64,000 bases of DNA from Leptolyngbyaceae cyanobacterium HOT.MB2.61 (GTDB lineage: Bacteria > Cyanobacteriota > Cyanobacteriia > Leptolyngbyales > Leptolyngbyaceae): contig JAIMBL010000005.1 in the NCBI GenBank assembly GCA_023511615.1, positions 1 through 64,000 on the forward strand, written 5' to 3'. This document shows positions 5,485 to 12,552 of this stretch, in pieces. Position 1 is the stretch's first letter; each line of letters begins with the position of its first letter. The notes under the pieces were generated by a model, which made no database searches, was not told the origin of the DNA, and saw nothing but the letters and a program-made list of their open reading frames with translations. A program made the translations under genes and the position numbers.

Positions 5485-6492
5485 ATGCCCCCATTCCATG
5501 TTCTAATTACTCGCCGACTGCCGGTTGAGCTAGACAAACTTGAAGCGATCGCCACTGTTGAAGTCTGGCCGGAACGGCAACCACCCCCCCGTGAGTGGTT
5601 GTTAGAAAGGATCAAAACCGTAGATGGGCTGCTGTGTTTGCTTACAGACCCCATTGATCGCCCCCTGATTGAAGCGGCAACTTCCCTCAAGGTCATTAGC
5701 CAGATGGCTGTGGGCTACGACAATATCGACATTCCAGTCGCAACTGCCCGAAAAATTCCAGTGGGCCACACCCCCGGAGTGTTAACTGATGCCACGGCTG
5801 ACCTGACCTGGGCGTTGCTGATGGCGGCGGCGCGGCGGGTGGTGGAGGGCGATCGCTTTACTCGCTCCGGGCAGTGGAAAACCTGGGAGCCCGATCTCCT
5901 GCTGGGACCGAATGTATCGGGTGCCACTTTGGGAATCATCGGCATGGGGCGCATCGGTCAGGCTGTGGCACAGCGGGCAAAAGGGTTTGACATGCGCATT
6001 CTGTATCACAGCCGCACTCGCTGTAATCTGGAACTGGAGCAGTCTTTAGGTGTGGAGTGCGTATCCTTCGATCGCCTCCTGCAAGAATCCGACTTCATCA
6101 CCATTCACACTCCCCTGTCTGAGGATACGCACCATTTGTTCAGTGATACCCAGTTTGAGCAGATGAAATCCTCAGCGATTCTGATCAACACTGCCCGTGG
6201 CCCAATCATTGACCCGAATGCACTCTATCGAGCTTTGAGTCAGGGTCAAATTGCCAGGGCTGCCCTGGATGTAACCGAACCAGAACCCATCCCTATGGAT
6301 AGTCCCCTGTTAACCCTGGATAACCTGATCATTACTCCCCACATTGGCAGTGCCAGTGTGCAAACGCGGCGAAAGATGGCAGAAATGGCGATCGCAAACC
6401 TGATTGCTGGACTGCATGGCCGTTTTCTCCCCCACTGCGTCAATTTAGAAGTCTATGATGCTGGTTCTCCGGGCTTGCCGGTGAAAGAGTAG
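5485..6492 (+). CDS. D-isomer-specific 2-hydroxyacid dehydrogenase (glyoxylate/hydroxypyruvate reductase-like)
   Basis: GATLGIIGMGRIGQAVAQRAKGF Rossmann motif, INTARGPIIDPNAL, DVTEPEP. Confidence 0.9.
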   Translation: MPPFHVLITRRLPVELDKLEAIATVEVWPERQPPPREWLLERIKTVDGLLCLLTDPIDRPLIEAATSLKVISQMAVGYDNIDIPVATARKIPVGHTPGVLTDATADLTWALLMAAARRVVEGDRFTRSGQWKTWEPDLLLGPNVSGATLGIIGMGRIGQAVAQRAKGFDMRILYHSRTRCNLELEQSLGVECVSFDRLLQESDFITIHTPLSEDTHHLFSDTQFEQMKSSAILINTARGPIIDPNALYRALSQGQIARAALDVTEPEPIPMDSPLLTLDNLIITPHIGSASVQTRRKMAEMAIANLIAGLHGRFLPHCVNLEVYDAGSPGLPVKE

Positions 6493-8008: not shown

Positions 8009-8740
8009 TTAACACGTCTGTTTTTGCAGTGTCATCTGTGCGGTGTGGGAAGATTCAGGAATTGCCCCGACGACGGCAGTTAGTTTACTTTGCAGATCTG
8101 CCCAGTGGGCTCCTTGCAAATTAGGAAGAAGGACATGAGCTGCTCCTACCCGTTCTTCAGGGCCCAGCCCAACGGCCCACATTCCGGCTCTCAGAGCGGC
8201 TTCGATACCCGATTCTGCGTCTTCAACCACTACACAGTCGGCAGGATTGAGATGTAGCAGTTCTGCGGCATGGAGAAAGACATCGGGTGCGGGTTTGGAG
8301 TGGGTGACGTTGAGACCGTCGGCGATCGCATCGATCCGGTTTACAATTCCCAATCGCTCAATCACTTCCCTGGCATTTTTGCTGGCAGAACCTACCGCTA
8401 CCTTGATTCCATCTGCTTGCAATTCATCCAGTAGCTCAGACACACCGGGGAGCAGATGTTTGGGGGTAATCGTGCGGATAAAGTTCAGGTAGTAGCCGTT
8501 TTTGCGGGCCATCATCTCCTGAAACTGTTCGTCGGTCACTGATCGCCCATTGAGCAGAAATAGCAACGAGTCTCGGCGAGAAACTCCCCGTAGAGCTTCG
8601 TTCGCGGCGCGATCGAAGGGAATGCCTTCCTCGTCGGCCAGCCGTTTCCAGCTAAGGTAGTGAAACTCCGATGTGTCAGTCAAAACGCCATCCAGATCGA
8701 AAATCGCTCCCTTTAAGATCAGGGGCTGGGGGAGGTGTCC
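8009..8740 (-). CDS. pgmB: Beta-phosphoglucomutase-like HAD hydrolase; real start uncertain (see finding)
   Basis: HAD motif I GAIFDLDGVLTDTSEFHYLSWKRLADEEG (extends upstream of the ORF-track start), VGSASKNA, VVEDAESGIEAALRAGM. Confidence 0.85.
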   Translation of the reverse strand, partial: GHLPQPLILKGAIFDLDGVLTDTSEFHYLSWKRLADEEGIPFDRAANEALRGVSRRDSLLFLLNGRSVTDEQFQEMMARKNGYYLNFIRTITPKHLLPGVSELLDELQADGIKVAVGSASKNAREVIERLGIVNRIDAIADGLNVTHSKPAPDVFLHAAELLHLNPADCVVVEDAESGIEAALRAGMWAVGLGPEERVGAAHVLLPNLQGAHWADLQSKLTAVVGAIPESSHTAQMTLQKQTC

Positions 8741-11035
8741 CTATTTGCTAATCCGAGTAGAGGGGGGAACAGCGGTAGGGAAGATCCGTGGAAGAGTGGA
8801 AGTCGATTTTGTGTCTTCATGTTGCTGACTTTTCGTAGTTTTTGGGTTCCTCAAATCAAATTTGTAAACCTGTCCCTGCCAGACAAATTGGAATTTGAGC
8901 CGAGTCCAGTTTTCTGGGAGACGGGGGGTTGCCACAGGTCCATTTTCGGTCAGATGGACACCTGCAAAGCCGAAGACAACAGCCTGCCAGGTGCCCCCTG
9001 TCGAAGCGGCGTGAATACCTTCGTGGGCATTGCCGCGCACGTCTGCCAGATCAACCAGAGCGGCCCGCATAAAGTGCTCGTAAGCTTCGGCTGGTTTGTC
9101 GAGTTCGCACGCCATAATCGCATGGACTGCGGGACCTAAAGACGAACCGTAGGTATGGTCGGTGCGGGGAACGTAATAATCCCAGTTGGCTTGCAGTGTT
9201 TCATAGGAGTAGCTGTCTTCATGGGGCTGGCTGAAGATTCCCCGCCGCAGCAGATAAAGCAACATCACCACATCCGGTTGTTTCAAGACCTGGCGACTGT
9301 TGGCTCCTTCAATACCCAGAATTGATTGCATGGATCGGGTTCGAGGCTCGTAGTCTTCCAGATTCAGGTCTTCTAGAGCAAAAAATCCTTCAAATTGCTC
9401 AATCAGTCCATTCGCGTTCTGGGAAATCCAGATTTTCTGGATAATCTCTTCCCAGTGTTGCAGGCGATCGCTCGTCAGGTTAAGCCTTTGTTGCAGTTCG
9501 GCGGCCCGATCGCGATCCATTTTCTGGAGCCAGTCCCACACCTTGAGAGCGGTTCTCAGGTGCCAGCGCATCATGATATTGGTGAAGGCGTTATTGTTGA
9601 CCCGCTCGTGGTACTCGTCGGGGCCAATGACATCGCTGATTTCGTAGCGTTGGCGATCGCCATTCCACTCCACGCGGCTGCCCCAAAACACTGCCGTGTC
9701 CAGAATCATTTCTGCACCACAGTCCCGCATCCAGTCATGGTCACCCGTGGCCTGCCAGTAGTGCCAGGAGGCATAGGCCACATCCGTGCTGATGTGTAAT
9801 TCAATTTCGCCACACCAGATGCGCACCAGATTTTCCCCAGTTGGAGTTGGAACCCAGCTTGGCGTCACCTCATCGCCTGTATTGGCACTCTCCCAAACAT
9901 ACATGGCTCCCTCATACCCGTGGGCTTTCGCTTTGCGGCGTGCTCCCTCCAGGGTATGGTAGCGGTAAGTCAGCAGATTCCGTGCCAGTTCTGGTTGCGT
10001 ATAGGTCAGGCAGGGCAGAATAAAAATTTCCGTGTCCCAAAAAATATGCCCCCGGTAGGCAAAGCCAGAGAGGGTTTTGGCCGGGATACTCACCCGACTG
10101 TCGTTACGCGGCGCAACCGAAAGCAGTTGGAACAGGTTGTAGCGTACGGCCAGTTGCGCATTCAGGTCCCCTTCAATCACAATGTCGCTAATTTCCCAGA
10201 CTTTTGCCCAGGCCGCTTCGTGGTCAGCATAAAGCACATTAAAGCCAGGCAGGTTTGCCAGCTTGTCCTGGGCCATCAGAACTGGATTGGGCACATCACG
10301 GGAGGTGTAGACTGTCACAATCTTTTCCAGGTAAGCCGTTTGCTCTGGCTGAATGGAAAACCGGGTAACCAGGGTAGGATAACCCTGAAAACTTATTGGT
10401 GTAGTTTGTTCAGCGGCCACTCCTGAAATGGTCAGCCGTGCAGCCATTCCCAGGTCGATTTTGCTATGGCGCGTGCGGACGTGCAGCCAGATGGAGTGAT
10501 CCGCTCCCCCCTGGTTGACGGCATCCCAGTGCAGATAGCCTTGATTGTCAGAGTAGCCGTTGAGACTGGTATGGACTTCAACCGGTCCAGCATAGTCGAT
10601 AGAGGTGATCTGACATTGCAGTGCCAGGACATGTTCATCGGCCAGGCTGGCAAAGCGGTCAAAGCGAAACTCAAAGGTTTGCCCCGCAGGACTTTGCCAG
10701 CGGACGTAGCGGCTTAGCACGCCACGTTGCATATCCAGCCAGCGTTTGTAGGCCATAACCTTGCCCTGGTCAAGGCGAAAGCGGGCTCCCCCTATTAAGA
10801 TTGTGAGAGAGAGCCAGTTAGGAGCGTTGGCCAACTCGGTAAAGACGATTGGCACGTTATCGTAGACGCCGTGGATGAGCGTCGAGGGGCGATCGCCCGG
10901 ATAGCCTTCTTCAAACGAACCGCGGGTTCCCAAATAGCCATTACTTAAGGTGAAGACGGTTTCTGTGTGGTGCTGTTGTGCGGGGTTAAAACCGTCTTCC
11001 GTCGTTTCGGTAACAATCCAATCAGCCTGTTGCAT
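8741..11035 (-). CDS. Glycoside hydrolase family 65 phosphorylase (kojibiose/maltose/trehalose phosphorylase type)
   Basis: SNGYLGTRGSFEEGYPG, GHIFWDTEIFILPCL, VIGPDEYHERVNNNAFTN, NAHEGIHAASTGGTWQAVVFGFAG. Confidence 0.9.
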   Translation of the reverse strand: MQQADWIVTETTEDGFNPAQQHHTETVFTLSNGYLGTRGSFEEGYPGDRPSTLIHGVYDNVPIVFTELANAPNWLSLTILIGGARFRLDQGKVMAYKRWLDMQRGVLSRYVRWQSPAGQTFEFRFDRFASLADEHVLALQCQITSIDYAGPVEVHTSLNGYSDNQGYLHWDAVNQGGADHSIWLHVRTRHSKIDLGMAARLTISGVAAEQTTPISFQGYPTLVTRFSIQPEQTAYLEKIVTVYTSRDVPNPVLMAQDKLANLPGFNVLYADHEAAWAKVWEISDIVIEGDLNAQLAVRYNLFQLLSVAPRNDSRVSIPAKTLSGFAYRGHIFWDTEIFILPCLTYTQPELARNLLTYRYHTLEGARRKAKAHGYEGAMYVWESANTGDEVTPSWVPTPTGENLVRIWCGEIELHISTDVAYASWHYWQATGDHDWMRDCGAEMILDTAVFWGSRVEWNGDRQRYEISDVIGPDEYHERVNNNAFTNIMMRWHLRTALKVWDWLQKMDRDRAAELQQRLNLTSDRLQHWEEIIQKIWISQNANGLIEQFEGFFALEDLNLEDYEPRTRSMQSILGIEGANSRQVLKQPDVVMLLYLLRRGIFSQPHEDSYSYETLQANWDYYVPRTDHTYGSSLGPAVHAIMACELDKPAEAYEHFMRAALVDLADVRGNAHEGIHAASTGGTWQAVVFGFAGVHLTENGPVATPRLPENWTRLKFQFVWQGQVYKFDLRNPKTTKSQQHEDTKSTSTLPRIFPTAVPPSTRISK

Positions 11036-11664: not shown

Positions 11665-12552
11665 CTAAACAAACTCTCCCCGCGCAACCATAACTACCTT
11701 TCCACCCACCCGAATTTCAATTGTTTCTTCCACTTTTTCTGCCTTCAAAAGCAGGAGGGAGGGTCTATTAATTTCATAACCCTGCTCTACCCGGACATCG
11801 ATAGAAGAACTGCCCAGATATCCGTGTTCTACCAGATACCCGGCAAAGCAACCACTGGCACTTCCCGTTGCCGGGTCTTCAGGGATGCCGATCGCGTGGG
11901 CAAACATGCGAGCACTGAAATGGTTGGCGGCATTTCGCACTTCTGGGCAGAAAACGAAGAGCATTTTGGCCTCCAGTGGTTCAACCAGGGCCAGCATTTG
12001 ATCCACATTCACCTGAATCCGTTGCAAGGCTGCCAGCCGCTTGAGGGGCACGATGAGGAAAGGTACCCCCGTCGAAACTTCCTGAATGGGAAAGCGTGGG
12101 TCGATGTCGTCGATTGACAAGTGAAGAACAGGAGCCACAGCCTCCGCCGTTAGAACTTCTCCAAACACGGGTGGATTCTGACGCATCCACAGCACATCAG
12201 GCTGCTGGTTTTGGTAGAGAATCGTGACAGGAATGGGGCCGACTTTGAGGTTGAGGGTTACGGTCTCTATCGGTTGCTGAATCAATGCCTGTTGCAAGAT
12301 ATAGGCCGTTCCCAGGGTGGGATGTCCGGCAAAGGGAAGCTCTTTCCCTGGAGTAAAGATCCGCACGTCGTACCCTCCCTCACGAGGAGTGGGTGAGAGG
12401 ATAAACGTGGTTTCCGAGAAGTTGGTTTCCCTGGCAAGGCGCTGCATCTGCTCAGTTGAAAGCGTACCTGCATCGGTGAAAACAGCCAGTTGGTTTCCGG
12501 CGTATTTCTCTTCCGCAAACACATCTACAATGTAGAAGTTCAAGGGGGGCAT
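11665..12552 (-). CDS. PhzF-family phenazine biosynthesis-like isomerase
   Basis: FYIVDVFAEEKYAGNQLAVF, RIFTPGKELPFAGHPTLG, EDPATGSASGCFAGYLVEHG. Confidence 0.92.
   Translation of the reverse strand: MPPLNFYIVDVFAEEKYAGNQLAVFTDAGTLSTEQMQRLARETNFSETTFILSPTPREGGYDVRIFTPGKELPFAGHPTLGTAYILQQALIQQPIETVTLNLKVGPIPVTILYQNQQPDVLWMRQNPPVFGEVLTAEAVAPVLHLSIDDIDPRFPIQEVSTGVPFLIVPLKRLAALQRIQVNVDQMLALVEPLEAKMLFVFCPEVRNAANHFSARMFAHAIGIPEDPATGSASGCFAGYLVEHGYLGSSSIDVRVEQGYEINRPSLLLLKAEKVEETIEIRVGGKVVMVARGEFV

Follow-up and report, generated by a model that had tools for sequence, protein, structure and literature searches.

The question raised by this locus is how, if at all, a beta-phosphoglucomutase (PGM) is made when its reading frame follows that of a GH65 glycoside phosphorylase after a single in-frame TAG and lacks a standard start codon. 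In the window, that is, the whole 64,000-nucleotide stretch of DNA analysed here, the GH65 ORF lies on the minus strand (11035 to 8741), starts with ATG and runs for 764 codons to STRISK-TAG, with the TAG at 8743-8741. Past the TAG the same minus-strand frame reads GHLPQPLILKGAIFDLDGVL... and meets no further stop until the TAA at 8011-8009, giving a PGM frame of 243 codons (8740 to 8009, minus strand). The earliest ATG, GTG or TTG 3' of the TAG is the TTG at 8683-8681, which lies beyond both catalytic Asp codons of the PGM (8698-8696 and 8692-8690); between the TAG and the DLDG motif there is none, so that the nucleophile is preceded by no standard start. An earlier note on this DNA had described both the shared frame and the TTG that comes too late, and re-reading bore it out, coordinates included; the strand, which it left unstated, is minus.

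The identity of the two halves was examined with protein families and solved structures. All three GH65 domains (N-terminal PF03636, central PF03632 and C-terminal PF03633) exceed the Pfam cut-off, and the nearest solved structure is kojibiose phosphorylase 3wiq (486 bits), which matches the GH65 half over nearly its full length. The GPDEYHE general-acid motif and the consecutive serines of GSSLGP align to 3wiq, which shares the GPDE(Y/F)HE general acid and the phosphate-site serines, and mark the protein as a phosphorylase rather than a hydrolase; the roles of the general-acid Glu and of the phosphate-binding serines are taken from PMC8626586. Unlike the window locus, 3wiq carries no attached mutase, and kojibiose as the substrate of the window enzyme is a prediction from this similarity. 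The PGM half scores 239.5 bits against the TIGR01990 beta-phosphoglucomutase model (equivalog cut-off 189.4), covering positions 1-187 of 187, and retains the DxD nucleophile motif of the HAD fold as FDLDGVLTDT (DLD at 8698-8690, read from the sequence). Its nearest solved structure is the bPGM 3nas; like 1lvh, this stand-alone enzyme resembles the window PGM along the full HAD domain and in the catalytic motifs. However, 3nas and 1lvh begin with an ordinary initiator Met where the window frame, devoid of a standard start, has ATC.

We then compared the locus with 59 related genomes and afterwards searched 391 genomes of the class. A fused frame proved to be the norm: by our count, 75 of the 86 close bPGM matches belong to frames that stay open for 700 aa or more. 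GH65 matches in the family of the window are likewise mostly in long frames, with some stand-alone paralogues of 751-787 aa. The window copy is among the 11 matches outside such frames; of these, G265 was left out of inspection, G006 and G011 show a frame change within GH65, and in G042 the frame shifts at the DLDG motif. In G006 copy 1 (L113, about 5600-5625) the change falls near residue 625 of GH65, and the remaining GH65 and the PGM share one frame; in G042 (L128, 5800-5830) it falls right at FDLDG (FDLDRG...) and puts the PGM out of frame, either by error or as a lesion. G162, G367, G326, G207 and G070 have a PGM with an in-frame ATG, and GH65 was not found in the stretch fetched around each. 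G144 (L216, 1434-4705) resembles the window in having GH65 and bPGM as two adjacent ORFs, but there the PGM lies in another frame, about 350 nt off, and has its own in-frame ATG starts; in the light of our trees, this separation may be ancestral or a second fission.

The cyanobacterial fused genes, among them those of G001, G012 and G015, share domain order, sequence and a hypervariable linker with the window copy, but each is one ORF, whereas the window copy carries the TAG inside the linker. In the same-genus genome G001 the fused frame is intact (1082 aa) and its GH65 part is 81% identical. A phzF-like gene lies upstream of GH65 in the window (11665 to 12552, minus strand) and likewise beside the fused gene in G001, G006 and G012, indicating that the locus is orthologous. 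Chance adjacency of two independent genes in the same frame was ruled out, since the orthologues are single fused ORFs. A search of the literature for a published GH65-bPGM fusion found none on point.

To place the window copy among these genes we relied on trees of GH65 and of the concatenated proteins, the PGM-only tree being poorly resolved. In the concatenated protein tree the window is sister to G001 within the fused clade and nested inside G006 copy 1 and G012; support at the nearest nodes is 100%. Since the window copy lies within the fused clade and its relatives carry the fusion at this very locus, these comparisons show, at the level of sequence, that the split is derived. The genome also holds a second, uninterrupted GH65-bPGM fusion on contig C244, which groups with G006 copy 2 (85% support). 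A single unbroken ORF spanning both enzymes is therefore found in the relatives and in the C244 copy but not at the window locus, where the TAG at 8743-8741 interrupts it. G006 has two copies as well, and its orthologue of the window gene bears the frame change within GH65; going by these two genomes, redundancy may plausibly have relaxed the constraint on such copies.

The GH65 fold ends at about residue 737 (about 8825), and nucleotide alignment puts the TAG within the inter-domain linker (8824 to 8702, minus strand), which is hypervariable among relatives and poorly alignable. Across 42 distinct fused linkers the length ranges from 11 to 79 residues. Linkers at L113, L114, L137 and L139 have a repeat-rich look (runs such as SPQSPVPSPQSP and HTPHPTPHTPHP), which suggests that repeats expand within them. 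In 16 of the 42, an in-frame ATG stands shortly before the PGM domain (the loci noted for ATG are L004-L024, L111, L144, L158 and L160); these are perhaps what is left of the start codon that the PGM once had, or they may serve as internal starts from which free mutase is made. The linker of G001, the nearest relative, holds no ATG, GTG or TTG over the 60 codons ahead of FDLDG. Loss of an earlier PGM start codon in the window is thus unsupported, as the fused G001 gene has none either; the window PGM would lack a start codon because it was the downstream domain of a fusion. Among the options listed in the earlier note, a recently split fusion is therefore the one best supported, through the fused relatives, the shared phzF locus, the trees and the start-less G001 linker.

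The same note had also considered a CTG or ATC start. The codons CTG (8722-8720) and ATC (8719-8717) would yield an N-terminus resembling those of stand-alone bPGMs, CTG-ATC-TTA-AAG giving MILKGAIFDLDG or MLKGAIFDLDG, and ATC falls where 3nas and 1lvh have their initiator Met; a separate PGM could thus arise from either codon, perhaps through ribosomes that terminate about 20 nt upstream and then re-initiate, and the purifying selection on the PGM described below is in keeping with it. However, CTG and ATC are poor start codons, and every stand-alone cyanobacterial PGM inspected has an in-frame ATG. At usable spacing, ATC has no Shine-Dalgarno pairing and that of CTG is weak and distant; the better sites belong to codons whose use would truncate the first strand or cost the enzyme its nucleophile. 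Since many genes in the window also have no clear Shine-Dalgarno site, poor pairing at CTG and ATC is weak evidence. The position of the ATC therefore speaks for this option, and the pairing and the equally start-less G001 gene speak against it; we judge it decidedly improbable.

We next considered translation through the TAG. Maintained or regulated amber readthrough, producing some full-length GH65-PGM enzyme, would fit the frame kept across the TAG and the selection on the PGM. However, TAG was seen at this linker position in none of the relatives examined, and no amber-suppressor tRNA (CUA anticodon) was present among 41 tRNA matches, the scan having scored 150 of its 279 first-look candidates. 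With that same coverage of tRNA candidates, the locus shows neither a stop conserved in orthologues nor a dedicated suppressor tRNA, either of which would mark a readthrough gene. TAG is an ordinary stop here, ending 12 of the 35 large presumed genes in the window, and this, with no suppressor tRNA found among the candidates scored, led us to reject genome-wide reassignment. An uninterrupted fused copy, moreover, is already in the genome. No positive evidence was found for readthrough, which we consider very improbable.

In order to assess the constraint on the PGM, we fitted a codon model to the window, G001, G006 copy 1 and G012; synonymous distances are long, and the model is approximate. 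On the window branch omega for the PGM is about 0.06 (roughly 0.03-0.12 within 1.9 lnL units), setting omega to 1 along the entire branch costs about 12 lnL units, and at most about 4-5% of the branch could have been neutral. These values point to strong purifying selection on the window PGM and exclude a long-dead pseudogene. Under such constraint, either the TAG is of recent date or stems from an error of assembly, or some PGM is still being produced; the low neutral fraction implies a recent interruption if it is real and silencing. Continued translation of the PGM would also fit the selection, a counterpoint to a simple interruption. Even so, it is distinctly unlikely that expression across or just after the amber codon, by readthrough or by CTG/ATC re-initiation, has been selectively kept as a means of making mostly free GH65 and little mutase.

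A further counterpoint is that the TAG rests on one base call in a draft assembly of 383 contigs from one strain of the species. Were it a sequencing, consensus or assembly error, the true gene would be an ordinary intact fusion: changing one base would turn TAG into any of several sense codons, no relaxation is seen in the PGM, the close relatives are all fused, and single lesions also occur in the copies of G006, G010, G011 and G042. Nevertheless, the stop comes without an accompanying frameshift, and at normal coverage a wrong base seldom makes its way into a consensus. We regard an error as unlikely.

Taken together, the data indicate that the locus is probably an ancestral GH65-bPGM fusion, interrupted recently in this lineage by a single amber codon in an unconstrained linker. 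The bifunctional ancestor would have joined a kojibiose-phosphorylase-like GH65 and a beta-phosphoglucomutase in one protein, with the predicted conversion of an alpha-glucoside and phosphate to beta-glucose-1-phosphate and on to glucose-6-phosphate. One amber codon would then have arisen in the inherited linker, with no PGM start lost. GH65 is presumably still produced as a separate enzyme, while the PGM half may be poorly made, through weak non-canonical initiation or background readthrough, or absent, a loss that the uninterrupted C244 copy or other mutases would cover. Our verdict is an ordinary, lineage-specific break within the linker of a fused metabolic gene, to which readthrough is an unsupported addition. 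So read, the locus offers a clean case of a fusion gene that broke where it is weakest, in the variable linker, with a second copy in the genome. More broadly, the GH65-mutase fusion, common in cyanobacteria though not found described in the literature searched, could channel beta-glucose-1-phosphate.
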